From: Oscillochloris sp. ZM17-4
GTDB lineage: Bacteria; Chloroflexota; Chloroflexia; Chloroflexales; Chloroflexaceae
DNA: 52,321 nt
Direction of reading: 5' to 3'
Assembly (NCBI RefSeq): GCF_019599295.1
Contig: NZ_JAIEWN010000001.1
Coordinates: 365,114-417,434 of the forward strand
Numbering within the stretch: the first letter of the stretch is position 1; each line of letters opens with the position of its first letter. The notes under the pieces were generated by a model. The model saw only the letters and a program-made list of their open reading frames with translations. It had not been told where the DNA came from and did no database searches. The translations under genes and the position numbers were made by a program. Below, one piece after another: positions 17,422-42,726 of this stretch.

Positions 17422-17477
17422 AATGTTGAATGTTGAATGTTGAATGTCTGGCATTCAACATTCAACATTCGACATTA
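17422..17477. repeat. TTGAATG heptamer inverted array before acsF
   Basis: TTGAATG units are followed by CATTCAA units around a short centre, giving a long potential hairpin directly upstream of the acsF ribosome binding site. It is nearly the same as the array at 12391-12466. Confidence 0.9.
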
Positions 17478-17494
17478 CCTCTGAAGGAGGCTCT

Positions 17495-18601
17495 ATGGAA
17501 GCGATGCCCGATCTGAGTGTGACGACCCGCCACGCCCTCCAGGAGGCGGTGCTGACCCCGCGCTTCTACACGACGGACTTTAAGGCGATCGACGCGCTCG
17601 ATATCGACAAGAATGGCCTGCGCGATGAGTTCGAGTGGATCAAGGACGAGTTTGCCCACGACTATAACAAGGGCCACTTTAAGCGGAATGAGGAGTTTCT
17701 CGCCGGCTTCGACGATATGCCGGTGCGACAGCTGTTCATCGAGTTCCTTGAGCGCTCGTGTACGGCCGAGTTTAGCGGCTGCGTCCTCTATGCCGAGATG
17801 GTCAAGCACCTCAAAGATCCGACCATGCGGCAGATCTTCCAGCTGATGAGCCGCGATGAGGGCCGCCACGCCGGCTTCATCAACCGCACGATGGCCGACC
17901 TGAATGTGGCCCTCGACCTGAGCGTGCTCCAGAAGCGCAAGAAGTACACCTTCTTCCAGCCGAAATTTATCTTCTACACCGTCTACCTCTCTGAGAAAAT
18001 CGGCTACTCGCGCTATATCAATATCTACCGCCACCTGGAGAAGAGCCCGGATCATATCATTCACCCGATCTTCAAGTGGTTCGAGGAGTGGTGCAACGAC
18101 GAGTACCGCCACGGCGAGTTCTTCTCGATGCTGATGCGCTCGCAGCCCGATCTGCTGAATAAGCCCAGCAACCGGCGCTGGATCCGCTTCTTCCTCCTGG
18201 CTGTCTATGTGACGATGTATATCAACGACGCCCGCCGTGAGAGCTTCTACAAGGCCCTCGGCCTTGACTGGCGCGCCTACGACCAGGATGTCATCCGGCT
18301 CTGCAACCAGATCTCCACCCAGGTCTACCCGGTGACGCTGCCCGTGGAGGACCCGCGCTTCTTCCAGCATATGGACGCGATCATCGCCTACGACCGCCAG
18401 GCGGAGGCGCTCGCCACCCGCAACGACCCGGTGGCTCAGGCCCAGAAGGCCCGCCTGCGCGCCGCGATCGGCATGCGCATGTTCACGCTCTTCCGGATGG
18501 AGCCCCAGATCACCACTTCGCAGAATAAGTGGAAGGGTCTCCAGGGCTTCCCGAACTACCCCGGCCCGGATCGCCCGCTCCGCGTCGCCGCCGCCGATTG
18601 A
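17495..18601 (+). CDS. acsF: Oxygen-dependent Mg-protoporphyrin IX monomethyl ester cyclase
   Basis: AcsF is the diiron, O2-dependent enzyme that forms ring E of (bacterio)chlorophyll, converting Mg-protoporphyrin IX monomethyl ester to divinyl protochlorophyllide. The 368-residue protein is of family length. Iron-ligand motifs are visible: E92 in the AEFSG segment, DEGRH at 121-125 and DEYRHGEFF at about 205-215. The ATG at 17495 has GAAGGAGG at 6 nt; in-frame codons upstream lie in the repeat array. It is followed by bchH. Together with hemF it indicates pigment synthesis under at least some oxygen. Confidence 0.96.
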   Translation: MEAMPDLSVTTRHALQEAVLTPRFYTTDFKAIDALDIDKNGLRDEFEWIKDEFAHDYNKGHFKRNEEFLAGFDDMPVRQLFIEFLERSCTAEFSGCVLYAEMVKHLKDPTMRQIFQLMSRDEGRHAGFINRTMADLNVALDLSVLQKRKKYTFFQPKFIFYTVYLSEKIGYSRYINIYRHLEKSPDHIIHPIFKWFEEWCNDEYRHGEFFSMLMRSQPDLLNKPSNRRWIRFFLLAVYVTMYINDARRESFYKALGLDWRAYDQDVIRLCNQISTQVYPVTLPVEDPRFFQHMDAIIAYDRQAEALATRNDPVAQAQKARLRAAIGMRMFTLFRMEPQITTSQNKWKGLQGFPNYPGPDRPLRVAAAD

Positions 18602-18677: not shown

Positions 18678-21600
18678 ATGCGCTTTGTTTTCCTTACCAT
18701 AGACGGGAATCACGCCGCCGCCCTCCGGCTGGCCGCCGACCGGGTGCGCCGCGAGCACGGGCTGGCACTCACGGTAGCGTTTCACGATGCGTCCTCGTTG
18801 CGCGATGCGGCGGGCTGGCGTCGCCTTGAGAGCGACCTGTCCGGGGCCGCGTTTGTGTTCGGCGCCCGTCTCTTCGGTGAGGAGTATGTGCGCCCCCTAG
18901 AGAAGCTGCTGCATGACGCGCCCTGCCCGGTGCTGGTGATCACCTCGAACCCGGCCCTGATCCGCTGCACGCGGATCGGCAAGTTCGATATGCGCACCCG
19001 CGATGAGGACGAGAAGCCGGGGATCATCCAGCAGTGGATCAAGAAGCTGCGCCCCCAGGGCGGCGCCGGCGAGGCCCGCCGCCAGCTCGCGGTGCTGCGC
19101 AACCTCAGCAAGGTGCTCAAGCTCATCCCCGGCAAGGCCCGCGATATCTACGCCTTCGCCGCCGCCCACCAGTACTGGCTCAACCCCTCCCCCGAGAACC
19201 TCTACCGCATGCTCTGTATGCTGGCCGACTCCTATGTGCCCGGCGTCCACGGCAAGCTGCCCCAGGCCGACCCGCTGAGCTACCCCGAGACAGCGATCTT
19301 CCACCCCGACGCGCCCGCGCCCTTCGAGCGCCTGGCTGACTATGAGAAGTGGCTGCGGGGGCGGAAGCAGGGCGGTAAGAACGGAACCGTCGGCGTGCTG
19401 GCCCTGCGCGGGGTGGTGCTGAGCGGGAACACGGCCCACCTGAAGGCGCTGACCTCGGCCCTGGAGTCCCGTGGCCTGACGGTGCGCATGGCCTACGCAT
19501 CGGGCCTCGACCAGCGCCCGGCGGTGGAGCAGTTCTTTGTCGGCGATAAGAAGACCGCCCCGGTCGACCTGCTGCTCAACGCCTCGGGCTTCGCCCTGGT
19601 GGGCGGGCCGGCCGAGAGCCGCCCGGTCGAGGCGCGGGCGACTCTTCAGTCGCTCGATGTGGGCTACTTCGGCCTGGTGCCGCTGGCCTTCCAGCGCATT
19701 GAGGACTGGCGCGCCGACTCGACCGGCCTGGCCCCGGTGCAGGCAGCGCTGAGCGTGGCCGTGCCTGAGCTTGAGGGCGCCGCCGAGCCCCTGGTCTTCT
19801 GCGGGCCGAGCGCGGCCGGCGACGGCATGGCCCCCCTCGCCGCCGAGATCGCCCAGGTCGCCGACCGGGCCGCCCGCCGGGTGGCCCTGCGCCACCGGCC
19901 CAACGCCGAGAAGAAGCTGGCCCTGGTGATCTTCAACTACCCGCCGAACCTGGGGAATGTGGGCACCGCCGCCTACCTGGATGTCTTCCAGAGCCTCTAC
20001 GGGCTGCTGGGCGCCCTGCGCGACGATGGCTACACGGTTGATATGCCGGCCAGCGCCGATGACCTGCGGCGGATGGTGGTCGAGGGCAACGCCCTGGCTA
20101 ATGGCACCGACGCCAGCGTGGCCGCCCGCCTGCCGGTGGCCGACTATCGCCGGCTCTTCCCGGCCCAGGCTGAGATCGAGCCCTTCTGGGGCCGCGCCCC
20201 CGGTGAGCTGCTCAACGACGGCAAGAACTTCCTGATCATGGGCGTGCAGCTGGGCAACGTGCTCGTCGGCGTGCAGCCCTCCTTCGGCTATGAGCGCGAC
20301 CCGATGCGCCTGCTGATGGCCAAGGACGCCGCGCCGAACCACGCCTTCGCCGCCTTCTACACCTGGCTGCGCTATGTGTACAAGGCCGACGCGGTGGTCC
20401 ACTTCGGCACCCACGGCGCGCTGGAGTTTATGCCCGGCAAGCAGGCCGGTATGAGCGCGGACTGCTGGCCCGCCCGCCTGATCGGCGAGCTGCCGAACTT
20501 CTACTACTATAGCGTCAACAACCCCAGCGAGGCGGCCATCGCCAAGCGCCGCGGCATGGCCACCCTGGTGAGCTACCTGGTGCCGCCGCTCCAGCAGGCC
20601 GGCCTCTACAAGGGCCTGCGCGCGCTCAAGGACACCCTCGACCGCTACCGCGCCGCGCCGAACGTCGAGCTGCTTGAGGATGTCCGGACGCAGGCTGAGA
20701 AGCTGGGCATTGTGCCTGAGGTGCAGGTCGATACCTCTGAGGCCTATGTGGGCGCGGTCGGCCACGAGCTGCTCAAGATTGAGGAGCGCATGATCCCGGC
20801 CGGCCTGCACGTGCTGGGCAAGTCGCCCGCGCCCGTCGAGCTGGTGGATTTCCTGGCCCTGACGGCGAGCTTCCGGCCCGCGGGCAAGCGCAGCCCCGCC
20901 CCCTTCCCGGCGATCATCGCCGCCAGCCTGGGCTACGACTATGTGTCCCTGCGCGAGCGGCTCTCCAGCGACACCACGGCCCAGGAGCAGTGGCGTCAGG
21001 TTGAGGCGATCGGCAAGGAGGCGATTCGCAGGTTTGTGGCCGGGTCGCCTGTGGGGGCGCAGCGCGCTGCCTCACCACGGACGCAGCACGCTGCGTCCCA
21101 ACAGGCCGACGCCTATCTGCACGAGTCAGCCCACATCCGCCCCGGCTCGCTCGATGAGATGTGGGCCTTCCTGGGCGACCTGCTGGCGAAGCTGCAGTCC
21201 CCCCAGGAGGTGCAGGGCCTGCTCCACGGCCTGCGCGGCGGCTTCATCGCGCCCTCGCCGAGCAATGATGTGGTGCGCGACCCGGCCGTCCTGCCCACCG
21301 GCCGCAATGTCTATAGCCTTGACCCCTACCGGGTGCCCTCGTCGGCGGCGATGGAGCGCGGCGGGCGCCTGGTGAACGAGCTGCTGGCCCGCCTGGAGGC
21401 CGAGCAGGGCGCGCTGCCGCAGACGGTGGCGGTGGTGCTCTGGGGCAGCGATAACCTGAAGTCGGAGTGTGAGGGCGTCGCCCAGGTGCTCGCCATGCTC
21501 GGCGCGCGGCCGCTGGTCGATGAGCTGGGCAGCGTGAGCGATGTGGAGCTCATCCCGCTGGAGGAGCTCGGCCGCCCGCGCGTCGATGCGGTGGTGACGG

Positions 21601-22484
21601 TGAGCGGGATCTTCCGCGACCTGCTCGGCAACCAGATGCAGCTGATCGACCGGGCCGCCCGCCTGGCCGCCGCCGCCGATGAGCCCGCCGAGCTCAACTT
21701 CGTGCGCGCCCACGCCGTCTCCCAGGCCGCCGAGCTGGGCATCCCCCTGGAAGAGGCCGCCGCCCGCGTCTTCTCGAACGCCCCCGGCAGCTACGGCGCC
21801 AATGTGAACAACCTGGTGGATAGCGGCACCTGGGACGATGAGGGCCAGCTCGGCGACGCCTTCCTCAGCCGCAAGGGCTTCAGCCTTGGCCCGAACGGCG
21901 AGTGGCGCGAGTCGCGCGCGGTGCTGGAGAAGGCGCTGGGCACGGTGGACGCCAGCTTCCAGAACATCGATAGCTTCGAGGTCGGCCTCTCCGATATCGA
22001 CAACTACTACGACAACCTGGGCGGGATCACCAAGAGCGTCGAGCTGCTGCGCGGCACCCGCCCGAAGACCCTGGTGGCCGACGCGCTCGGCAGCGGCAAC
22101 CGGGTCAGCTCGCTCGATCAGGCGGTGCGCCTGGAGACGCGGGCCAAGCTGCTGAACCCCAAGTGGTACGAGGCGATGCTCAGCCACGGCTACGAGGGCG
22201 CCCGCGAGATCGAGGCCCGGGTCAACAACACCTACGGCTGGAGCGCCACCGCCGGCGCGGTGGACGGCTGGGTCTACCAGAGCGTCGCCGAGACCTTCGT
22301 GCTCGATGAGGCGATGCGTGATCGGCTGGCCGCCCTTAACCCGACGGCCGCCGTTGGCGTGGTGCGGCGCCTGCTTGAGTCGAGCGGGCGCGGCTTCTGG
22401 GACGCCGACCCGGAGACGCTGGAGCGGCTGCGCGAGATCTACGCGGATCTTGAGGATCGCCTTGAGGGTATTACCGTCGGCTGA
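18678..22484 (+). CDS. bchH: Magnesium chelatase subunit H
   Basis: BchH binds protoporphyrin IX and is the catalytic subunit of the BchHID chelatase that inserts Mg2+, the committed step to bacteriochlorophyll. At 1,268 residues it matches the CobN/BchH family. The block VVHFGTHGALEFMPGKQ and the NNTYGWSATAGAVDGWVYQ region near the C-terminus are typical. Near residues 793-810 a stretch reads GAQRAASPRTQHAASQQ, encoded by palindromic repeat DNA (21050-21106). No strong Shine-Dalgarno precedes ATG 18678. Chloroflexi often carry several H paralogues (BchH, BchS, BchT); which one this is needs a tree, although its place beside acsF favours BchH. Confidence 0.92.
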   Translation: MRFVFLTIDGNHAAALRLAADRVRREHGLALTVAFHDASSLRDAAGWRRLESDLSGAAFVFGARLFGEEYVRPLEKLLHDAPCPVLVITSNPALIRCTRIGKFDMRTRDEDEKPGIIQQWIKKLRPQGGAGEARRQLAVLRNLSKVLKLIPGKARDIYAFAAAHQYWLNPSPENLYRMLCMLADSYVPGVHGKLPQADPLSYPETAIFHPDAPAPFERLADYEKWLRGRKQGGKNGTVGVLALRGVVLSGNTAHLKALTSALESRGLTVRMAYASGLDQRPAVEQFFVGDKKTAPVDLLLNASGFALVGGPAESRPVEARATLQSLDVGYFGLVPLAFQRIEDWRADSTGLAPVQAALSVAVPELEGAAEPLVFCGPSAAGDGMAPLAAEIAQVADRAARRVALRHRPNAEKKLALVIFNYPPNLGNVGTAAYLDVFQSLYGLLGALRDDGYTVDMPASADDLRRMVVEGNALANGTDASVAARLPVADYRRLFPAQAEIEPFWGRAPGELLNDGKNFLIMGVQLGNVLVGVQPSFGYERDPMRLLMAKDAAPNHAFAAFYTWLRYVYKADAVVHFGTHGALEFMPGKQAGMSADCWPARLIGELPNFYYYSVNNPSEAAIAKRRGMATLVSYLVPPLQQAGLYKGLRALKDTLDRYRAAPNVELLEDVRTQAEKLGIVPEVQVDTSEAYVGAVGHELLKIEERMIPAGLHVLGKSPAPVELVDFLALTASFRPAGKRSPAPFPAIIAASLGYDYVSLRERLSSDTTAQEQWRQVEAIGKEAIRRFVAGSPVGAQRAASPRTQHAASQQADAYLHESAHIRPGSLDEMWAFLGDLLAKLQSPQEVQGLLHGLRGGFIAPSPSNDVVRDPAVLPTGRNVYSLDPYRVPSSAAMERGGRLVNELLARLEAEQGALPQTVAVVLWGSDNLKSECEGVAQVLAMLGARPLVDELGSVSDVELIPLEELGRPRVDAVVTVSGIFRDLLGNQMQLIDRAARLAAAADEPAELNFVRAHAVSQAAELGIPLEEAAARVFSNAPGSYGANVNNLVDSGTWDDEGQLGDAFLSRKGFSLGPNGEWRESRAVLEKALGTVDASFQNIDSFEVGLSDIDNYYDNLGGITKSVELLRGTRPKTLVADALGSGNRVSSLDQAVRLETRAKLLNPKWYEAMLSHGYEGAREIEARVNNTYGWSATAGAVDGWVYQSVAETFVLDEAMRDRLAALNPTAAVGVVRRLLESSGRGFWDADPETLERLREIYADLEDRLEGITVG
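21050..21106. repeat. Palindromic repeat translated inside bchH
   Basis: The DNA contains GGGCGCAGCGCGCTGC and GGACGCAGCACGCTGCGTCC, the same GACGCAGC core as the palindromes at 25242-25261 and 29395-29422. It adds about 18 in-frame residues to BchH at a presumably exposed position. Confidence 0.75.
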
Positions 22485-32803: not shown

Positions 32804-33739
32804 ATGACAACAGTTTCCTCATCTCGCGAGCAGGTTGTGGCGCTCATGCGCGCTGGGCAGAGCGTGCTGATCAACGGCTTTGCGGAGGTTGAGGCCGAGG
32901 GTGCCGCCCTCGCGGGCCTGCCCGCCGCCTCGTTTGCCACATCGACCTGGGAGCGCCCCGGCGGCGGCGGCGGCACCGCCCGCGTGCTCACCGAGGGCGT
33001 CGTCTTCGAGCGGGCCGGCGTGAATGTCTCCGCCGTCTATGGCGACGCGGTGCCGCCGAGCCTCTACCACGACCGGCCGCACCTCAAGGGCGCGCCCTAC
33101 TTCGCCACGGGCGTGAGCATGGTGCTCCACCCGCGCAACCCCTACGTGCCGGCATTTCACGCGAACTATCGCTACTTCGAGGCTGGCAACGACTGCTGGT
33201 TCGGCGGCGGCATGGATATGACCCCGGCCTACGGCTTCGATGAGGACGCGGTTCACTTCCACTCGGCGATCAAGACCTATGTTGATCGCCACGATGTGGC
33301 TGACTACCAGACACTGAAGGAGACCTGCGATCGCTACTTCTTCATCAAGCACCGCAACGAGATGCGCGGCATCGGCGGGATCTTCTTCGATATGCTTGAT
33401 CCCCAGGGTGACGACGGGTTCGACCGCGGGCTTGCCTTCGCCCAGGATGGCATCGAGACGATCCTGGCCGCCTATCTGCCGGTCGTCCGCCGGCGCATGG
33501 CCTCGCCCTACGGCGAGCGCGAGCGCGAGTGGCAGCTCTATCGCCGAGGCCGCTATGTTGAGTTTAATCTGGTGTACGATAAGGGCACGGTCTTTGGCCT
33601 CCAGACCAACGGGAATATCGAGGCTATCCTCATGTCGATGCCGCCGCTGGCCCGCTGGGAGTTCCAGGTTACGCCGGAGCCCGGCAGCCCCGAGGCCGAT
33701 GTCGCCCGCTTTCTCCAGCCCCATGCGTGGGCGGTGTAG
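32804..33739 (+). CDS. hemF: Oxygen-dependent coproporphyrinogen-III oxidase
   Basis: HemF oxidatively decarboxylates coproporphyrinogen III to protoporphyrinogen IX using O2. The 311-residue protein has FATSTWERPGGGGG, the HANYRYFEAG block, the GGGMDMTPAYGF segment and GRYVEFNLVYDKGT. AAGGAG lies 7 nt before ATG 32804. With acsF it shows that oxygen-requiring steps are encoded here; an oxygen-independent hemN is not in the window. Confidence 0.97.
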   Translation: MTTVSSSREQVVALMRAGQSVLINGFAEVEAEGAALAGLPAASFATSTWERPGGGGGTARVLTEGVVFERAGVNVSAVYGDAVPPSLYHDRPHLKGAPYFATGVSMVLHPRNPYVPAFHANYRYFEAGNDCWFGGGMDMTPAYGFDEDAVHFHSAIKTYVDRHDVADYQTLKETCDRYFFIKHRNEMRGIGGIFFDMLDPQGDDGFDRGLAFAQDGIETILAAYLPVVRRRMASPYGEREREWQLYRRGRYVEFNLVYDKGTVFGLQTNGNIEAILMSMPPLARWEFQVTPEPGSPEADVARFLQPHAWAV

Positions 33740-33904: not shown

Positions 33905-34399
33905 ATGCCACCGAAGGTTCAGTTTGTCCGTGAAGATGGCCTCTACCACTCATTTTGCGGGCTGGTCAGCGTGGGCTGGCTCTACCAGAAGATCAAGGAC
34001 AGCTTCTTCCTGATCCTGGGCACGCACACCTGCGCCCATCTGCTCCAGAACACCCTCGGGGTTATGATCTTCGCCCGCCCACGCTTCGCCGTCTCGCTGC
34101 TTGAGGAGGGCGACCTGTCATCCTCACAGCCGAATATCGCCGACCAGATCGCCGAGATCAAGCGCGAGCATAACCCCTCGGTGATCTTCCTGCTCTCCTC
34201 CTGCACCCCCGAGGTGATGAAGGTTGAGTTCGAGGGTCTAGCCGCCTCGGTGAGCACGCCCGACCTGCCGGTGCTGTTTGTGCCGGCCTCTGGGCTTGAC
34301 TACACCTTCGCCCAGAGCGAGGACTCGGTGCTCCAGGCACTGGTGCCGTTCTGTCCGGTTTTTGACACATACGCCGAAACCTTAACTTGTGACCAATGA
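33905..34399 (+). pseudogene. bchN: Truncated dark-operative protochlorophyllide reductase subunit N
   Basis: The first ~150 residues are clearly Bch[42 protein letters not shown]. The three cysteines that hold the NB-cluster in the BchN/BchB heterotetramer are at C18, C43 and C100. BchN is normally about 410-430 residues, but here similarity ends at about 34355 (ALVPFCP), and after 13 unrelated residues a TGA follows. The substrate-binding and dimer-contact C-terminal ~60 % is absent. GGGAGG precedes ATG 33905, and bchB starts 17 bp later. Either a deletion, a pseudogene or an assembly error. Confidence 0.85.
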
Positions 34400-34416
34400 T
34401 ATAACAGGATAATGAT

Positions 34417-36012
34417 ATGCGCCTCGCCTACTGGATGTATGAGGGTACCGCCCATCACGGCGTCGGCCGGGTGATGAACAGCATGCGCAATGTCCACGCG
34501 GTCTTCCACGCCCCCCAGGGCGACGACTACGTGAACACGATCTTTACCATGCTGGAGCGCACGCCCTCCTTCCCCGCGATGACGACCTCGGTCGTGAGCG
34601 GCACCGACCTGGCCCGCGGCACCATCCGCCTCCCCGAGACCCTGCGCCAGCTCGAGGAGAAGCTGCACCCCGAGCTGATCGTCGTGGTCGCTTCGTGCAG
34701 CACGATCTTGCTCCAGGAGAACCTGGAGGTCGCCGCAGCCTCGGCCCACCTCGACGCCGATGTGCTGGTGTATGATGCGAACCCCTACCGCATGCAGGAG
34801 AACTCGGCCGCCGAGGGCCTGTTCAGCGAGCTGGTGCGGCGCTACGCCGCGCCCCAGCCGCTCACCGATTACCCCAGCGTCAATATTCTCGGCCCGGCCT
34901 CGCTGGGCTTTCACGTGCGACACGACCTGACGAGCATGCGCCGGATGCTCGGCACCCTCGGCGTGCGGGTGAATGTGGTGGCCCCCTGGGGCGCTACTGT
35001 GGACGACCTGCGCCGCCTGCCGGCGGCATGGCTGAACATCGCTCCCTACCGCGAGCTTGGCGCCAACGCCGCCGACTACCTAGAGGGCCAGTTCGGCACT
35101 CCGGCGCTGCGCGAGGCGCCGATCGGCGTCCAGCCCACCCTTCGCTGGGTGAACCAGATCGTCGAGAGCCTGAATGAGATCGGCGCCCGCCGCAATGGCC
35201 CGGTCATCCGCATGCCACACCTGACCGCCTTCTCGCTTGACGGCATGTCGGCTCCCTCGGCGGTGCCCTGGTTCACCCGCACCGCCGATATGGAGAGCTA
35301 CGCCGGCAAGAGCGCCTTTATCTTCGGCGACGCCACCCACACGGTGGGCATGACCAAGTTCCTCCACGATGAGCTGGGCATGCCGATCGTCGGCGCGGGC
35401 ACCTACCTGCTGAAGGAGGCGAGCTGGGTGCGCGAGCAGCTCCAGGGCTACGTCAGCGACGAGCAGTTCCTGGCCACTGACGAGTTCCAGGTCACGGCAG
35501 CCCGCATCGCCGAGCTGCGCCCCGAGCTGATCTGTGGCACCCAGATGGAGCGCCACACGGCCCGCAAGTACGACCTGAACTGCATGGTGATCGCGCCGCC
35601 CACCCACATCGAGAACCACCTGCTGGCCTACCGGCCCTTCTTCGGCTTCGATGGTGCCGATACGATCGCCGATGAGGTCTACACCACCTGCACCCTGGGC
35701 ATGGAGAAGCATCTGATCGACCTGTTCGGGGACGCGGGCCTGGATGAGGCAGAGGCGGTGGAGGCAGTAGCGGCGGTGGAGGCAGTGGCGGCAGTGGAGA
35801 CGGTGGCGGTAACTGAGGGGGCTGTCCAACCCCCAACCCCCAACTCCCAGCCCCTGCAGTGGTCCAGCGACGCTGAGAACATGCTCAAAAAGGTGCCCTT
35901 CTTCGTGCGCGGCAAGGCGCGCAGCAACATTGAGAAGTACGCCCGCGAGCACGGCCACGAGCTGATCACCGCCGATGTGCTGCTCACGGCTAAAGAGAAT
36001 ATCGGCGCGTAG
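34417..36012 (+). CDS. bchB: Dark-operative protochlorophyllide reductase subunit B
   Basis: BchB, with BchN, forms the nitrogenase-like catalytic component that reduces ring D of protochlorophyllide without light. The 531-residue protein begins [19 protein letters not shown] and keeps D36, the unusual aspartate ligand of the NB-cluster, plus [12 protein letters not shown]. The C-terminal PCP_red domain is present ([15 protein letters not shown]). Between them (about 445-475) lies a low-complexity linker of EAVAAV repeats and PPTPNSQP, coded by GGCGGTGGAGGCAGT-type and CCCCCAA-type repeat DNA. The start has AGGA at 8 nt. Its partner BchN is truncated just upstream. Confidence 0.95.
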
Positions 36013-36070: not shown

Positions 36071-37366
36071 ATGGGCATGATCGATAACGCAACACGCAAC
36101 ACGCAAAACACAAAACTCGCCGCTCCGCGGGAGCGCAGCCTGTCTGAGATCACGCTGATGAGCGCTGCCGAGCGCCTGAAGGGCCGGCCTAAGCTCTGTA
36201 GCGACTGCGGGGTCTGCTCCAGCAGCTACCGCCCGATGCTGCCGCAGGTCTGCGTCTTTGTGGACAACAAGAGCGAGGAGATCGAGCGGAAGCTCCACGG
36301 GCGCAACCGTGAGGATGGCGACGAGCTGCTCTTTGGAATCTACCGGTCGATCCATGTCATCCGCATGGCGCGCCCGAACCCCGATGCCCAGTGGAGCGGG
36401 ATCGTCACCGGCCTGGGGGCGCTGCTCCTGGAGCGCGGCATCGTCGATGGGGTGATCACCACGATGGCGGTGCCGGGGACGCACCACGCCCCGCTGCCCG
36501 TCCTGGCCCGCACGCCCGAGGAGGTGCGCGCCAGCGCCCGCAACAAGCCCTGCCTCTCGCCTAACCTGGATGTGCTCGACCAGGTGCGTGAGAGCGGCGT
36601 GACGCGCCTGGCCTTCATCGGCACCGGCTGCCAGGTTCACGCCCTGCGCGCGATGCAGGATGAGCTCGGCCTCGAGAAGCTCTATATCATCGGCATCCCC
36701 TGCACCGACAATGTGGCCTACCCCGACATGATGCGCTTCCTGAATGTCGCATCGGCGTCTCCTGAGACGGTCGTCCACCACGAGTTTATGCAGGACTTCC
36801 GGGTGTGGCTGCGCCACGAGGACGGCCACGTCGAGAAGGTGAACTATGTCGATCTGGATGTCTCGGCGCTTGGCGGGGAGCGCGGGATCTTCCCGGCGGC
36901 CTGCCTCTCCTGCTTCGACTACCAGAATACCCTGTCGGACCTGACGATCGGCTACCTGGCCGCGCCGCTGCCGCCCACAGAGCGTTGGCAGTGGACGATG
37001 GTGCGCACCGAGGCTGGCGAGGAGCTCTTCAATCTGATCCGGCCCTTCCTGGAGCTCGGCGCCTTCACCCAGCGCGGCAACCGCCTGCTCGGTGTGAGCG
37101 AGTATGTGCGGATGCTGAAAAAGCCGCGTGGGCGGCCGCCCTTCCCCATCCGCAAGCTGATCGCCTGGATGCAGCGCAACCGTGGCCCGCGCGGCATGGA
37201 GTTCGCCCGCTCCGTGATCGAGATGAAGCTGCTGCGCAACCTGCAGTACGTCCGCGACGCTCATAGCCGCTTGGAGCGCCGCGTTGTCCCCGGCCACGTC
37301 TACCGCGCGCTCGCCCAGTACGCCCAGGTGTATGAGGAAGAGTTTGATCGGCCGCTTGCGCCGTGA
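36071..37366 (+). CDS. bciB: Ferredoxin-type 3,8-divinyl (proto)chlorophyllide 8-vinyl reductase
   Basis: The 431-residue protein belongs to the FrhB/coenzyme F420 hydrogenase beta-subunit family that includes BciB, which reduces the 8-vinyl group of divinyl protochlorophyllide using reduced ferredoxin, FAD and 4Fe-4S clusters. A cluster motif is at C43, C46 and C49 ([13 protein letters not shown]), with further cysteines in [19 protein letters not shown] and [11 protein letters not shown]. Position between bchB and bchL strongly supports BciB over F420 enzymes. The N-terminal residues 7-16 are coded by a CAACACG heptamer array. The start at 36071 is likely; ATG 36077 is an alternative. Confidence 0.88.
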
Positions 37367-37434: not shown

Positions 37435-38256
37435 ATGTCCCTTATTATCGCAGTGTATGGCAAGGGCGGCATCGGTAAGTCCACCACGTCGGCGAACCTC
37501 TCGGCGGCCATGGCTCTCAGGGGCGCCAAGGTGCTCCAGATCGGCTGTGACCCCAAGCACGACAGCACCTTCCCGCTCACCGGCATGCTCCAGCCGACGG
37601 TGATCGACGTGCTTGACGAGGTTGACTTTCATATTGAGGATATCTCCCGTGAGGATGTAATCGTCACCGGCTTTGCCGGCGTCGATGCCCTGGAGTCGGG
37701 CGGCCCGCCTGCGGGCAGCGGCTGCGGCGGCTATGTGGTGGGCGAGACGGTCAAGCTGCTCAAGGAGTTCGGTCTCTACCACAAGTACGACGTGATCGTC
37801 TTCGATGTGCTGGGCGATGTGGTCTGCGGCGGCTTCTCGGCGCCGCTGAACTACGCCGACTATGGCGTCATCGTGGCCTGCAACGACTTCGACAGCATCT
37901 TTGCAGCCAACCGGCTCTGCCTGGCGATCGCCCAGAAGAGCCAGCGTCACAAGGTGAGGATGGCGGGCGTGATCGCCAACCGGGTGGACTACGACATCGG
38001 CGGCGGCACCAACCTGCTCGATCAGTTTGCTGAGACGGTGGGCAGCCGGATCATTGGCAAGGTGCCCTACCACGATCTAATCCGCCGCTCGCGCCTGGCC
38101 GGGAAGACCCTGTTCGAGATGGAAGGGCCAGACAAGGATATCTGCGTCCAGCCCTTCTTCGACATGGCCGACCAGCTCCTGGGCACGCCGGAGTCGAGCG
38201 TGCCGGCCCCGCTGAACGACCGCGACATCTTCGATGTGATCGGCGGCTGGAAGTAA
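37435..38256 (+). CDS. bchL: Dark-operative protochlorophyllide reductase iron protein
   Basis: BchL is the NifH-like ATP-driven reductase that feeds electrons to BchN/BchB. The 273-residue protein has the P-loop GKGGIGKST at residues 9-17 and cluster-bridging cysteines C97 (GSGCGGY) and C131 (DVVCGGF). AGGAG stands about 8 nt before ATG 37435; the in-frame upstream codon at 37363 overlaps bciB and is unlikely. It ends the bchN-B-bciB-L series, followed by a terminator-like hairpin. Confidence 0.97.
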
Positions 38257-38493: not shown

Positions 38494-39879
38494 TTACATC
38501 AGCATCTCGGGCGTGAGGCGCTGCGTGAAGTAGTGCATCGCGATGTTGACCAGCCAGACCCAGTCCATCTTCCGGCCAGCCATCCGCTTATAGATCCCCG
38601 GCCAGGAGTAGACCGCGCGCTGCACCTTGATAAAGTTCTTGAGGAACTGCTCGCGCTGGATCTTGGCCGGCTCATACATATAGTGGAAGGTGTCGTACTT
38701 GTCCCAGTCGAAGTGGACGATCCGCGGCTTCATCTCCTCGAACCAGGGTGTGCCGGGGAACGGCGTGGCGATCGTGAAGACCGGGAACTCGATCCGGTTC
38801 TTCATGATAAAGTCGAAGGTGTCCTGGAAGCTTTTGTTTGTGTCGGTGTCGAAGCCAAAGATAAAGTAGCCCTGGATGGCGATGCCCTGCTTATGGACAT
38901 TCGCGACCACGTCCTCGTAGTGCGCCACCCGGTTAGAGCCCTTGTGGACATACTTGATCGTCTCCGGCGAGACCGACTCGAAGCCGACGTTAAACATCTC
39001 GCAGCCGGCGGTGGCGGCCAGCTCGACAAACTCGCGTTTCTCCAGGAAGTTCATCGAGATATTCGCATTCCACTTCGTGCCCATGCCCACCATCGCATTG
39101 AAGAGCTCATTGGCGTAGGCCGGCTTGAAGCAGATGTTGTCGTCCATGAACGAGAAGCGGACGTTTGCCTTGCCCGCGTAGTCCTGGTGCGCCTTGATCT
39201 CCGTGATCATGTGGTCCGAGTCACGGGTGCGGAAGCTCTTGCCGTAGATGCGCGGGGTGCAGCAGAAGTTGCAGCCGACCGGGCAGCCCTTCGTGGCGAG
39301 CAGGGGCAGCCGCTCCGAATAGTTCTTCGCGTGCTTAGAGATCCGGCTGTAGCGGAAGTCGGTGCGCGGCATCTCGGTGAGCGACTTCCAGCCCATCTCC
39401 GGCCCAGGCTTATAGAGCGGCTTGAGCGTGTCCTCGTAGATATCCTGGGTGAGCTGGTCGTAGATCGACTCGATCTCGCCAAAGACCACGCTGGTCGCGT
39501 GCTGGAGCGCCTCATCGGGCAGCATCGTGGGGTGGACGCCGCCGAGGACGACCTTCTTGCCCTGGGCGATTGCCCGGTCGCCGATTCCATAGACCCGCTT
39601 CGCGTTGAGCGTGCGCGAGGTCATGGCGATCACATCATACTCTGAGAAATCCTGGGGGATCTCATCGCCGATGCGCTCATCGAGGAAGTCGATATCGAAG
39701 TGGGTGTTCGCCATGGTGGCGACCATCATCAGGTTGAGCGGCATACTCACCTTGCCGGAGTCGACCATCAGGGGAGTATTGCTCTTCGGCTGAATGACGA
39801 GCCACTTTTTGCGCTTCGTAGGAGCGACGAAGGGCTTACGCGTCAGCTCGATCGTATCTGGCGCAATGACCATGCTCAT
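38494..39879 (-). CDS. Cobalamin-binding-type radical SAM enzyme
   Basis: The 461-residue protein has an N-terminal B12-binding-like Rossmann domain (about 25-160; VVLGGVHPTMLPDEAL) and a radical SAM barrel with CxxxCxxC in KGCPVGCNFCC at about 205. A C-terminal region follows (PFPGTPWFEEM). This architecture is shared by the BchE cyclase, BchQ/BchR methyltransferases and hopanoid methylases. The bch neighbours suggest pigment or lipid tailoring, but the N-terminus does not look like true BchE, so no symbol is given. The gene follows another of the same type at 15 bp, in an operon. ATG 39879 has AGAGG at 6-7 nt. Confidence 0.82.
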   Translation of the reverse strand: MSMVIAPDTIELTRKPFVAPTKRKKWLVIQPKSNTPLMVDSGKVSMPLNLMMVATMANTHFDIDFLDERIGDEIPQDFSEYDVIAMTSRTLNAKRVYGIGDRAIAQGKKVVLGGVHPTMLPDEALQHATSVVFGEIESIYDQLTQDIYEDTLKPLYKPGPEMGWKSLTEMPRTDFRYSRISKHAKNYSERLPLLATKGCPVGCNFCCTPRIYGKSFRTRDSDHMITEIKAHQDYAGKANVRFSFMDDNICFKPAYANELFNAMVGMGTKWNANISMNFLEKREFVELAATAGCEMFNVGFESVSPETIKYVHKGSNRVAHYEDVVANVHKQGIAIQGYFIFGFDTDTNKSFQDTFDFIMKNRIEFPVFTIATPFPGTPWFEEMKPRIVHFDWDKYDTFHYMYEPAKIQREQFLKNFIKVQRAVYSWPGIYKRMAGRKMDWVWLVNIAMHYFTQRLTPEMLM

Positions 39880-39894
39880 GCAGAACCTCTTCCA

Positions 39895-41451
39895 TCAATG
39901 GGCTTCTACGGCCGTTTCGATTGACTCGCTCGACAGTGCCACCGCAGGCGGGGGCAGGTTGTCCTGGGCAATTGGGCGGCGCGAGCCGTGCTTGCAGTTT
40001 TCGAGCTGATCCTTCAGGTTGCGTCGGAAGAGGATGCTCGTCACCGTTGTGATCAGCTTATTGTTATTCATGAGTACGCGGCGGACGTTGGCCCGCCAGG
40101 TAAACATGCCCAGAAAGTGCTCGATGTACTTGATCTGATACTCGTAGGGGTCGTAGCGGTCGCAGCGCACCACCAGGTTATGGGCCGTGTACTTGTCCCA
40201 GTCCTCATCGACGACCAGCCCCTTGGCCTTATACTCCTTGTAGAGCTCCGTGCCGGGGTAGGGGGTGAGGATCGAGTAGATCGGCATCACCAGGGCATTC
40301 TCGACCACGAAATCCATCGTGGCGTCCATATCCTCGTAGGTGTCGATCTCCGGGTTGACCAGGAAGTTGCCCTGGATGGGCAGCCCGGCCTTGCGGCAGT
40401 CGGAGATAATCCGCGAGTAGTCGGCGGCGGTGTTGATCCGGCCCTTGTTATAGGTCTTGAGCGTCTCCTGGTTGATCGACTCAAAGCCGACCAGCGCCAT
40501 CGCGCAGCCCGCCTTCACCAGCAGCTCGACCGTCTTCGCGTCATCGAGGAACTTCAGGCTAATAAAGCTGCTGAAGCGGATGTTACACTCGGACAGGATC
40601 TCCATGATCTCCCACATGCGCTGCTTGTTCACGCCCAGGTTCTCGTCGGTGAACATGAACCAGGGCTTATCGCCATAGCGCGTCTCGCGGAACCAGACCC
40701 GCTTTGCGGTGGCGATCTGCTCGCGGATGGAGTCGGGGGACTGGATGCGGTAGAGCCGGCCGGTGAAGTTCGGGGTGACGCAGAACGAGCATGTGAAGGG
40801 GCAGCCGCGGGTCATATAGATCGGGATGGACTTACGCGAGTCGACCTTGCCGCGCTTGCTGCAGAGGAAGATACGCTCATAGTCGATCACCGGCACCTCA
40901 TTGACGGCTGCGAAGTGGACGGCCTCGTAGCGGCGCTGGAGCTTGCCGTCGGCCACATCCTGGAGTACGTTTGCCCAGAGATTCTCGGCCTCGCCGCTGA
41001 CCACACAGTCGGCGTGGGCGAGCGCCTCGTCGTAGTTGAACGAGACGTGTACGCCGCCCAGCACGACGGGGATGCCGCGGGCGCGGAATCTGTCGGCGAT
41101 CTCGTAGGCCCTAGTCGCGTTCAGCGTGCGGGTGGTGATGCCGACCATGTCGTAGCCGCCATCGTAGTTGACCACATCGCCGAACAGTTCATCGACCAGC
41201 TCGATCTCGTGCTGTGGCGGGGTGATGCTCACGAGCACGCCCACGGCCATCGAGAAGAGCGCCTTCTGGCTAGTGTCCTCCTCTTTCTTACCCTTCGGGG
41301 TGATCAGGAGGATCTTGAGCGGCCGGATCGAATCGACGGGGCGGAGCGGCGCATACATCGAGGTCGGAGTTAGCTCGATCAGCGAGCCATTAGCAGACAT
41401 ACTATCAGTCTGCTTCCCTCCGACGGCTGGGGTTGTACCGGAACTGGTCAT
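39895..41451 (-). CDS. Cobalamin-binding-type radical SAM enzyme, second of pair
   Basis: The 518-residue protein has an N-terminal B12-binding-like domain (about 55-180; VVLGGVHVSFNYDEAL), a radical SAM motif TRGCPFTCSFCVTPNF at about 225-240, and a C-terminal extension (ILTPYPGTELYKEY). It is distantly related to its downstream neighbour. A strong AAGGGAGGT precedes the ATG at 41451 at 5-6 nt; an upstream in-frame ATG (41469) overlaps this ribosome binding site and is rejected. Likely products are methylated or ring-modified tetrapyrroles or lipids; the substrate is unknown. Confidence 0.83.
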   Translation of the reverse strand: MTSSGTTPAVGGKQTDSMSANGSLIELTPTSMYAPLRPVDSIRPLKILLITPKGKKEEDTSQKALFSMAVGVLVSITPPQHEIELVDELFGDVVNYDGGYDMVGITTRTLNATRAYEIADRFRARGIPVVLGGVHVSFNYDEALAHADCVVSGEAENLWANVLQDVADGKLQRRYEAVHFAAVNEVPVIDYERIFLCSKRGKVDSRKSIPIYMTRGCPFTCSFCVTPNFTGRLYRIQSPDSIREQIATAKRVWFRETRYGDKPWFMFTDENLGVNKQRMWEIMEILSECNIRFSSFISLKFLDDAKTVELLVKAGCAMALVGFESINQETLKTYNKGRINTAADYSRIISDCRKAGLPIQGNFLVNPEIDTYEDMDATMDFVVENALVMPIYSILTPYPGTELYKEYKAKGLVVDEDWDKYTAHNLVVRCDRYDPYEYQIKYIEHFLGMFTWRANVRRVLMNNNKLITTVTSILFRRNLKDQLENCKHGSRRPIAQDNLPPPAVALSSESIETAVEAH

Positions 41452-42015
41452 TGTGACCTCCCTTGGCATCCTGGCGAGTGGTGCGGCTCGTCCACCTGTC
41501 TTTAGTTTGTCTGCGCAGCTTTCCTAGGGGGAAAACGTGCATGTTTCCACACGCAACCCACAACGACGCTGCGCTATCTAGAGCGTAGACACGCCACCAT
41601 ACTATGAGAGACGATGTACAATGGTTTGATAATTATACAACAGAGTGCTTTATATGTCCAGGGGTTTATTAGTAAAACAGCTTCTTTATTTGCGAAAGTT
41701 GGGGGGTGTCGAGCGCCTTGCTGCGCTTCTCGGCGTGCGGAGTATGCACCCTTCAGATCCCATTGTGAGGCCAGCGCATCATGGGGGGCGATGAGCTACG
41801 AGCTTTCTGATATGCGACGATGATCATCTCGTCTGATTATCACGCCAGTGTCATAAAATCACAAACTGTGCATGCATGGGACAAAAGCGTGATGCTCTCA
41901 GGTTTACCGGCCAAATTATGGTTTGACCCCTGCCTCCCACCCCGCTATAATGCCCCTACTATCTTCTATTGAGACTGATCAGCTATAGATCACCTCGGAG
42001 CTACAGGAGCTACTC
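41452..42015. other. Divergent intergenic region, lower GC, no gene
   Basis: About 560 bp between the radical SAM pair and the DsbA-like gene show no convincing coding frame. Base composition is visibly more AT-rich than the rest of the window, especially 41590-41700. It holds a near-consensus promoter for the DsbA gene (41923-41951) and presumably the promoter of the radical SAM operon. Confidence 0.7.
41923..41951 (+). promoter_or_regulatory. Sigma-70-type promoter for the DsbA-like gene
   Basis: TTGACC (41923-41928) and TATAAT (41946-41951) are separated by exactly 17 nt, about 65 bp before ATG 42016. Confidence 0.75.
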
Positions 42016-42726
42016 ATGAGTGTACAGGGCCAGCGCGGCCGGAAGGTTACGCGCAAGAGCCGTAATTCGCTGACCACCTTCTATATGCTGGTTGGCGGCG
42101 TGCTCGTTCTCGTCCTTGGCTTTGTCGGGGTCTTCGCGCTGCGCGGGGGCTTCTCCAGCACCGTGACCCCGGTCACCGCAGCGGTAGGCACCACTGCCGA
42201 TGGCTACTACTATAAGGGCAACCCCGATGCCCCGGTGAAGGTGATCGAGTACGGCGACTACCAGTGCCCCTCGTGCGCGTTCTACGACAAGAGCCTCGCG
42301 CCGATCATTGATCGCGACTATGTGAACACCGGCAAGGTGCAGTTCATCTACCACGAGCTGCCGCTCACATCTATCCACCCGAATGCGCAGGTCTCGGCGG
42401 AGGCCGCCCGCTGCGCCGGCGACCAGGATGTGGCGAAGTACTGGCAGATGCATGACATGCTCTTCCTGAACCAGGATCAGTGGGCCGGCCTGAGCTCGCC
42501 GCAGAACACCTTCAGCAGCTATGCCGGGCAGCTGGGCCTGGATCGGGGTGCCTTCGATAGCTGTCTGAGCAGCGGCGCGAACACCGCCGTGATCCAGGCC
42601 GCCGAGCAGGCCGGGATCGCGGCTGGCATCCAGGCCACGCCAACCTTCGATGTGAATGGTACCCAGGTCAGCGCCAATGAGGTCGCCGCCACGATCGACG
42701 CGGCCCTGCGGGCACTGGGCCAGTAG
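42016..42726 (+). CDS. Membrane-anchored DsbA-like thiol-disulfide oxidoreductase
   Basis: The 236-residue protein has a basic N-terminus, one transmembrane helix (about 21-42) and an extracytoplasmic thioredoxin-fold domain with the active site C84-P-S-C87 (DYQCPSCAFY) and the cis-proline region GIQATPTFDVNG. It belongs to the DSBA/thioredoxin_4 group and probably introduces or shuffles disulfides outside the cytoplasm. ATG 42016 follows ACAGGAG-like sequence. It precedes secD, though each has its own promoter. Confidence 0.92.
   Translation: MSVQGQRGRKVTRKSRNSLTTFYMLVGGVLVLVLGFVGVFALRGGFSSTVTPVTAAVGTTADGYYYKGNPDAPVKVIEYGDYQCPSCAFYDKSLAPIIDRDYVNTGKVQFIYHELPLTSIHPNAQVSAEAARCAGDQDVAKYWQMHDMLFLNQDQWAGLSSPQNTFSSYAGQLGLDRGAFDSCLSSGANTAVIQAAEQAGIAAGIQATPTFDVNGTQVSANEVAATIDAALRALGQ

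Follow-up and report, generated by a model that had tools for sequence, protein, structure and literature searches.

A bchN gene truncated at an insertion-sequence end and a complete cyanobacterial-type LPOR gene in the genome of Oscillochloris sp. ZM17-4

How does a phototroph reduce protochlorophyllide when bchN, which encodes one part of its dark-operative reductase (DPOR, BchNBL), is cut short? This question is raised by a locus in the green filamentous phototroph Oscillochloris sp. ZM17-4, whose genome (G000; assembly GCF_019599295.1) is a 6.69-Mb draft, 98.6% complete, in 182 contigs with 100-N gaps. The window, that is, the whole stretch of DNA analysed here, covers 52,321 nt (NZ_JAIEWN010000001.1:365,114-417,434). 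A sequence-only reading of it had found bchN cut short right before an intact bchB and had offered three ways out: a second bchN, a reduced complex, or about 800 bp lost in assembly. The window is one contig bounded exactly by two 100-N scaffold gaps; thus, the bchN junction itself is no scaffold gap. The reference congener is Chloroflexales bacterium ZM16-3 (RYFE02000001; G005), which has the same gene order (hemL-sulP-hemF-bchN-bchB-frhB-like-bchL) and aligns with about 44 kb of the 52-kb window at 78-90% DNA identity. Unlike G000, ZM16-3 has a full-length bchN and lacks a light-dependent reductase (LPOR).

The truncated bchN and the DNA that fills its gap

The bchN reading frame begins with ATG at 33905 on the plus strand and ends with TGA at 34397-34399, right before bchB and at the stop position first reported, encoding 164 aa. 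Residues 9-152 match positions 1-147 of the 407 in TIGR01279 with 246.8 bits (cut-off, 419.95); a full-length BchN has about 407-427 aa, and about 64% of it is absent from this frame. On the solved subunit N chain 2xdq, the fragment corresponds to residues 6-161 of 460. The native remainder is codons 1-152 (33905..34360, plus strand), which are 95-96% identical to ZM16-3, the nearest named relative (96% aa over 152 residues; pairwise dN/dS 0.056). Cys18, Cys43 and Cys100 are all kept in the fragment and residue 36 of BchB is Asp, just as the earlier reading had it; we take these four residues to be the NB-cluster ligands. Similarity to intact bchN stops at codon 152; the end of homology is real, and it lies at 34360, 5 bases further than the position of about 34355 first given. 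ZM16-3 has 895 bp between the aligned blocks where the window has 47 nt.

Most of these 47 nt are foreign. Residues 153-164 are encoded by the 38-bp end of an IS4-like insertion sequence (34361..34398, plus strand), the outer tip of which faces bchB. A DNA search of G000 with window positions 34340-34425 traced this filler to C114 (38/38 identity), C95 (94% over 47), C175 (95% over 38) and C172 (95% over 37), with shorter pieces at other sites and a related end on C13; the aligned copies have the common end CTTAACTTGTGACCAATG. On C114 and C175, the end is part of an element whose IS4-family-like transposase is incomplete (90.7 and 89.6 bits with NF033592, below its cut-off of 115; 16.5 bits with PF01609, below its cut-off of 23); the longer, 371-aa ORF has no Pfam match. 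The IS tip is adjoined by the native 18-base bchB leader (34399..34416, plus strand), which carries an AGGA ribosome-binding-like motif; the last two tip bases and the first leader base form the TGA stop of the bchN frame. Before the ATG the leader ends in GGATAATGAT, an ending shared with ZM16-3; its O. fontis (G002) counterpart, ATAACAGGA, is similar. In the multiple alignment of the junction, the G001 row is poorly aligned at its 3' end. On the other side, bchN joins the interior of the IS end without evident shared sequence.

One IS end is left at the window site. The stretches examined around the C114, C175, C95 and C172 copies showed no second end, and partnerless ends on C95 and C172 mean that such decay is not peculiar to bchN. 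Elsewhere in the genome, C13:119211-119385 is a short MITE-like element with two outward-facing, inverted IS4-like ends, one of them diverged, and an 8-bp flanking duplication, the same 8 bases AGCTCAGG standing on each side. The simplest history of the junction would be the arrival of an IS4-like element 18 bp ahead of the bchB start, followed by a deletion that ran from the IS interior to bchN codon 152, took most of the element together with the last 64% of bchN and spared the 38-bp end.

No other bchN was found in the assembly. The three matches to the BchN family model are the fragment, BchY (on C97) and BchB, and a full ZM16-3 BchN query (E up to 10) returned the fragment and BchY only, with no detached 3' part. 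No trace of the 275 remaining codons was found in the assembly. The first of the three ways out was therefore not found, and a reduced complex is unsupported, as about 64% of BchN is absent. The loss of DNA in assembly retains some likelihood, against which stands the nature of the joined DNA, an IS end sharing no overlap with bchN.

Neither is the truncation a trait of the genus, as bchN scored over the family cut-off in all five congeners searched. Across 61 genomes (G000 and 60 relatives), the bchN model matched in 46 and exceeded the cut-off in 39. In three other family members bchN is imperfect: it is split over two frames in G010, has one internal stop in G014 and lies at a contig end in G015. 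Four more of the same family (G007, G022, G028 and G036; 84-91% complete) gave weak matches only, with no clear bchN. Small defects and absences of bchN thus occur in other draft genomes; a gene cut like that of G000 was seen in no other row among the matches listed. The BchN model, which also catches nitrogenase-like subunits, gave three matches in G000 and at least five in each of five congeners; the lower count suggests that G000 may be without a nitrogenase-like pair as well. Scytonema tolypothrichoides VB-61278 scaffold_220, a 5.9-kb contig of a cyanobacterial assembly, carries a bchN 94% identical to the Chloroflexales gene and probably reflects contamination by an associated Chloroflexales, and a record titled Candidatus Gracilibacteria SM1_231_1 has a contig with a Chloroflexales-type bchN (90%) that looks mislabelled or contaminated.

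The surrounding pathway and the LPOR gene

Among the genes examined, the pathway around the broken bchN is otherwise in place. bchB (34417..36012, plus strand, 531 aa with Asp36; TIGR01278, 756.8 bits) and bchL (37435..38256, plus strand, 273 aa; TIGR01281, 453.5 bits) are both full length and over their cut-offs; thus, the other two DPOR components are intact in G000. Between them lies an FrhB-like gene (36071..37366, plus strand; frhB, 89.2 bits, below the cut-off), which is syntenic with ZM16-3 and which we assume is probably a BciB-type 8-vinyl reductase. The plus strand of the window also carries acsF (17444..18601; TIGR02029, 443.2 bits versus 192.5), the O2-dependent Mg-protoporphyrin monomethyl ester cyclase; bchH (18678..22484; TIGR02025, 1532.9 bits versus 829), Mg-chelatase subunit H; and, directly upstream of bchN, hemF (32804..33739; NF003727, 387.7 bits versus 297), the O2-dependent coproporphyrinogen oxidase. 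Altogether, hemA, hemC, hemB, hemE, hemL and hemF of the window exceed their cut-offs; a hemD-like gene there falls short. Outside the window, bchY and bchZ are on C97, the former above its cut-off and the latter slightly under (512.5 versus 529 bits), and a pufL/pufM-type reaction-centre pair (type II) is on C131. This pair, acsF, bchH, bchY, bchZ, bchB and bchL are all open frames of normal length. Further along the window, 38494-41469 on the minus strand contains two B12-binding radical-SAM genes (BchE matches of 82 and 94 bits, cut-off 481), possibly BchE-like or BChl c methyltransferases, and 42016-42726 on the plus strand matches the Rcas_1661 thioredoxin-like (seleno)lipoprotein family (160.5 bits, cut-off 190).

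The sequence-only reading had proposed a search for a light-dependent POR, and one was found. A curated LPOR model gives one strong match in G000, at C110:62506-63450, within a 321-aa ORF at C110:62491-63456 (527.6-528.2 bits, cut-off 331.35). The protein matches solved structures over its full length: T. elongatus 6l1h (E 8e-148), 6l1g and plant POR B 7jk9. It has the NADPH-binding TGASSGVG at residues 12-19 and the pair Y192/K196 in YKDSK; cysteines C38, C90, C198 and C225 each align with the same residue in the cyanobacterial 6l1h and 6l1g. By its sequence the gene is complete, with the active-site motifs that we checked kept, and its product would be expected to have light-dependent activity. 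The feature types (NADPH motif, Tyr/Lys pair and Cys) are named in the Fig. 1 legend of PMC7947762, and the available text of PMC13297055 uses the numbering Y193/K197/C226.

With E up to 1e-60, the LPOR model matched one of the 61 genomes and a protein query one of 400 genomes sampled from the phylum (G000 included), and in both cases it was G000; none of the five congeners had a match at that threshold. The sole carrier in both samples is thus the genome with the broken bchN.

The gene sits in host DNA. Of the 66.9-kb C110, about 32 kb align in the same order with ZM16-3 contig C56, and LPOR lies in the gap-free piece C110:59075-66900 with no gap to either flanking gene. Upstream is an epimerase-like gene with 89.8% DNA identity to ZM16-3, where it is found on C1, within a 6.2-kb stretch absent from the otherwise collinear region of the window; directly downstream is a dispersed repeat that recurs on C110, followed by a gene 87.1% identical to ZM16-3. 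The LPOR gene has a GC3 of 0.91, and its RSCU correlates at 0.951 with that of 11 window genes taken together, versus a GC3 of 0.30-0.63 for 32 cyanobacterial homologues (the M20 row, in the wrong frame, was left out). Since the Dinoroseobacter shibae LPOR likewise has a high GC3 (0.923; correlation 0.895), codon usage alone cannot fix the source; it appears to speak against a fresh cyanobacterial contamination, not against another high-GC source. Contamination is unlikely given both flanks, the shared repeats and the codon usage.

The sequence relationships point to cyanobacteria. Matches at E up to 1e-60 were obtained in 63 of 146 genomes, the best at 77%; these 146 represent the phylum of a Scytonema-labelled assembly, on which the word cyanobacterial rests here. 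A plasmid search with LPOR returned Pseudanabaena PCC 7367 (70%) and D. shibae (57%). An earlier tree of 34 rows, in which the bootstrap had not settled, gave no resolved place for G000. With 15 rows added and 5 near-identical ones of the 49 left out, the tree of 44 rows places the G000 LPOR inside a 28-row cyanobacterial set (100/99), a placement at the level of the set and not of a sister, and places D. shibae with five small-genome cyanobacteria (99/92). AU tests rejected G000 with D. shibae (p 0.0142), G000 with D. shibae and the five small-genome cyanobacteria (p 0.000411), and a grouping of the 37 remaining cyanobacterial rows that excludes G000 (p 0.000724); in the tree and the tests alike, the AAPB are represented by the single sequence of D. 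shibae, on a long branch. Transfer by the AAPB route is at odds with both. Neither the phage collection (E up to 1e-30) nor viral contigs, in searches able to pick up close relatives only, gave a match that would suggest a phage source. In the available text of PMC7947762, 33 AAPB LPORs form one clade, beside picocyanobacteria in 83 of 100 trees. Because the G000 LPOR falls inside the cyanobacterial set and the AAPB LPORs form one clade elsewhere, it looks like an independent transfer, separate from the AAPB one.

Order of events and competing explanations

We propose the following sequence of events as the probable explanation. A cyanobacterial LPOR would have been gained by horizontal transfer in this Oscillochloris-like bacterium, and once it was present the cell's own DPOR would have become dispensable. 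bchN would then have been broken by the IS-associated deletion, leaving protochlorophyllide to be reduced by LPOR alone, with NADPH and light, while AcsF, BchH, BchY, BchZ and the type II reaction-centre pair, with the rest of the pathway examined, would be retained. The presence of LPOR in G000 means that DPOR loss could be survived in the light. We also lean, a little less firmly, towards the wider statement that a Chloroflexota phototroph has swapped its nitrogenase-like DPOR for an independently acquired cyanobacterial LPOR, that its bacteriochlorophyll synthesis is obligately light-dependent, and that it has been caught soon after the first break in DPOR.

The timing is suggested by how little has decayed. 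Lineage-specific amino-acid changes in the window versus ZM16-3 number 6:4 in BchB and 5:4 in BchL, compared with 9:6 in hemL and 7:3 in the FrhB-like gene, so that relaxed selection on bchB and bchL finds little or no excess of changes in its favour. The BchN fragment has 4:0, three of the four within 7 residues, a weak sign of relaxed constraint. Here sulP (raw 7:14) was left out for impossible dN values in three of four outgroup rows, and hemF and the radical-SAM gene are without outgroup counts. Little or no excess change in BchB and BchL, together with an IS end identical to another copy, indicates a recent break, which would postdate an LPOR acquisition old enough for host-like codon usage.

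One point against this proposal is that bchB and bchL are intact and constrained, as they would be also if bchN were intact in living cells. The truncation could then be an artefact of assembly or strain: the population, or most of it, would have an intact bchN, the assembly would show a deletion present in few molecules, or a chimeric join, and LPOR would supplement a functional DPOR, as it does in aerobic anoxygenic Proteobacteria. We consider this unlikely; in its favour are the draft state of the assembly, with 182 contigs and 100-N gaps, and a second odd join in it. At C110:64934/64935, 1.5 kb from LPOR, two cut genes meet bluntly, a GH-like ORF (glycan-acting lipoprotein-like) without its first ~94 residues and ruvX without its last ~20, and 5.85 kb of the ZM16-3 arrangement, glmS included, are absent; this join is either a misassembly or a rearrangement. 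The missing glmS is no sign of misassembly, since the glmS block is not beside ruvX in any of three congener regions and the ZM16-3 block there is thus not ancestral; the cut ruvX is still odd. At bchN, however, the gene runs into the interior of the IS end, and with no shared sequence at the join a simple repeat-overlap join is unlikely; a molecule with this join was probably sequenced. The IS tip adjoining the native bchB leader and the 275 codons untraced in a 98.6%-complete assembly also tell against an artefact. So does a count of such cuts. A crude gene caller was used to examine 13 collinearity breaks with ZM16-3 on two scaffolds; at three of them an alignment stops far inside a predicted ZM16-3 gene (more than 250 bases from both gene ends), namely bchN, C110f and C110d (one side, not blunt). 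Gene-interior cuts are a minority of breaks and are not unique to bchN. We therefore work on the view that the junction is probably real in living cells and that DPOR activity would be lost with it.

Other readings take the junction as real and interpret it differently. The pseudogene-like fragment might be an early casualty of a loss of phototrophy, with LPOR incidental; this is very improbable, as the pufL/pufM-type pair, acsF, bchH, bchY, bchZ, bchB and bchL all have open frames of normal length and LPOR is present as a specific replacement. Still less probable is a second role for the homologous chlorophyllide reductase BchXYZ in protochlorophyllide reduction. Its bchY and bchZ are present in G000, and the available text of PMC8446752 and PMC5826079 proposes such a role for Anaerolineae; given LPOR, however, it would be superfluous, and bchN loss without LPOR was seen in none of the five congeners. 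Finally, it is barely conceivable that the 164-residue BchN and BchB make up a minimal working DPOR. The three Cys ligands, Asp36 and the low pairwise dN/dS of the fragment would suit it, whereas the fragment spans only residues 6-161 of 460 in 2xdq and its 12-residue tail is IS-encoded; with that IS end identical to another copy, the low dN/dS probably dates from before the deletion.

If replacement of DPOR by LPOR is correct, G000 presents a second, independent cyanobacterial LPOR transfer coupled to a fresh DPOR knock-out, a natural experiment that bears on the long-standing question of what makes DPOR disappear in the presence of LPOR, and of whether oxygen is the driving force. AcsF and HemF of G000 are oxygen-using enzymes; DPOR is described as oxygen-sensitive and LPOR as not (PMC7947762, available text). 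The replacement also predicts that this anoxygenic phototroph, whose relatives are open to comparison, makes no bacteriochlorophyll when kept dark. If bchN is intact in the population, the finding becomes one of LPOR as an addition, not a replacement.

Comparison with known systems

In the literature searched, with its partial coverage, we found no report of a Chloroflexota LPOR, and none is reported in the available text of PMC13297055, PMC13025772 and PMC12654162. We do not claim that LPOR with a broken DPOR is the sole case among anoxygenic phototrophs. The available text of PMC7947762 counts 36 LPORs in organisms that are not oxygenic phototrophs, members of the Proteobacteria and Gemmatimonadetes (Gemmatimonadota). 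These systems, D. shibae among them, share with G000 an anoxygenic lifestyle, a type II reaction centre, AcsF and a transferred cyanobacterial-type LPOR. G000 differs from the AAPB described there in that its LPOR falls inside other cyanobacterial LPORs, its host belongs to Chloroflexota and its bchN is broken.

Within Chloroflexota, the closest comparison is with the phototrophic Anaerolineae (Roseilinea, Thermofonsia), for which the available text of PMC8446752 and PMC5826079 states that neither bchLNB nor LPOR could be found and suggests BchXYZ or other promiscuous homologues for the protochlorophyllide step. Like G000, they are Chloroflexota without a complete DPOR; unlike G000, they have no LPOR that could be found.

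The state predicted for G000, with LPOR alone left for protochlorophyllide reduction, is that of angiosperms, of the LPOR-bearing alga Chlamydomonas sp. UWO241, which has lost DPOR (PMC6802932), and of A'-like thermophilic cyanobacterial MAGs, which keep LPOR and lack both DPOR and nitrogenase (PMC9600594), as far as the available text of these sources goes. The MAGs would be a parallel in this second respect too, if the apparent lack of nitrogenase-like genes in G000 holds. All of these are oxygenic and without chlB, chlL and chlN, whereas G000 is anoxygenic, has bchN alone broken, apparently recently, and would have gained its LPOR by transfer. G000 may have come to make its pigment in the light only, as flowering plants did.
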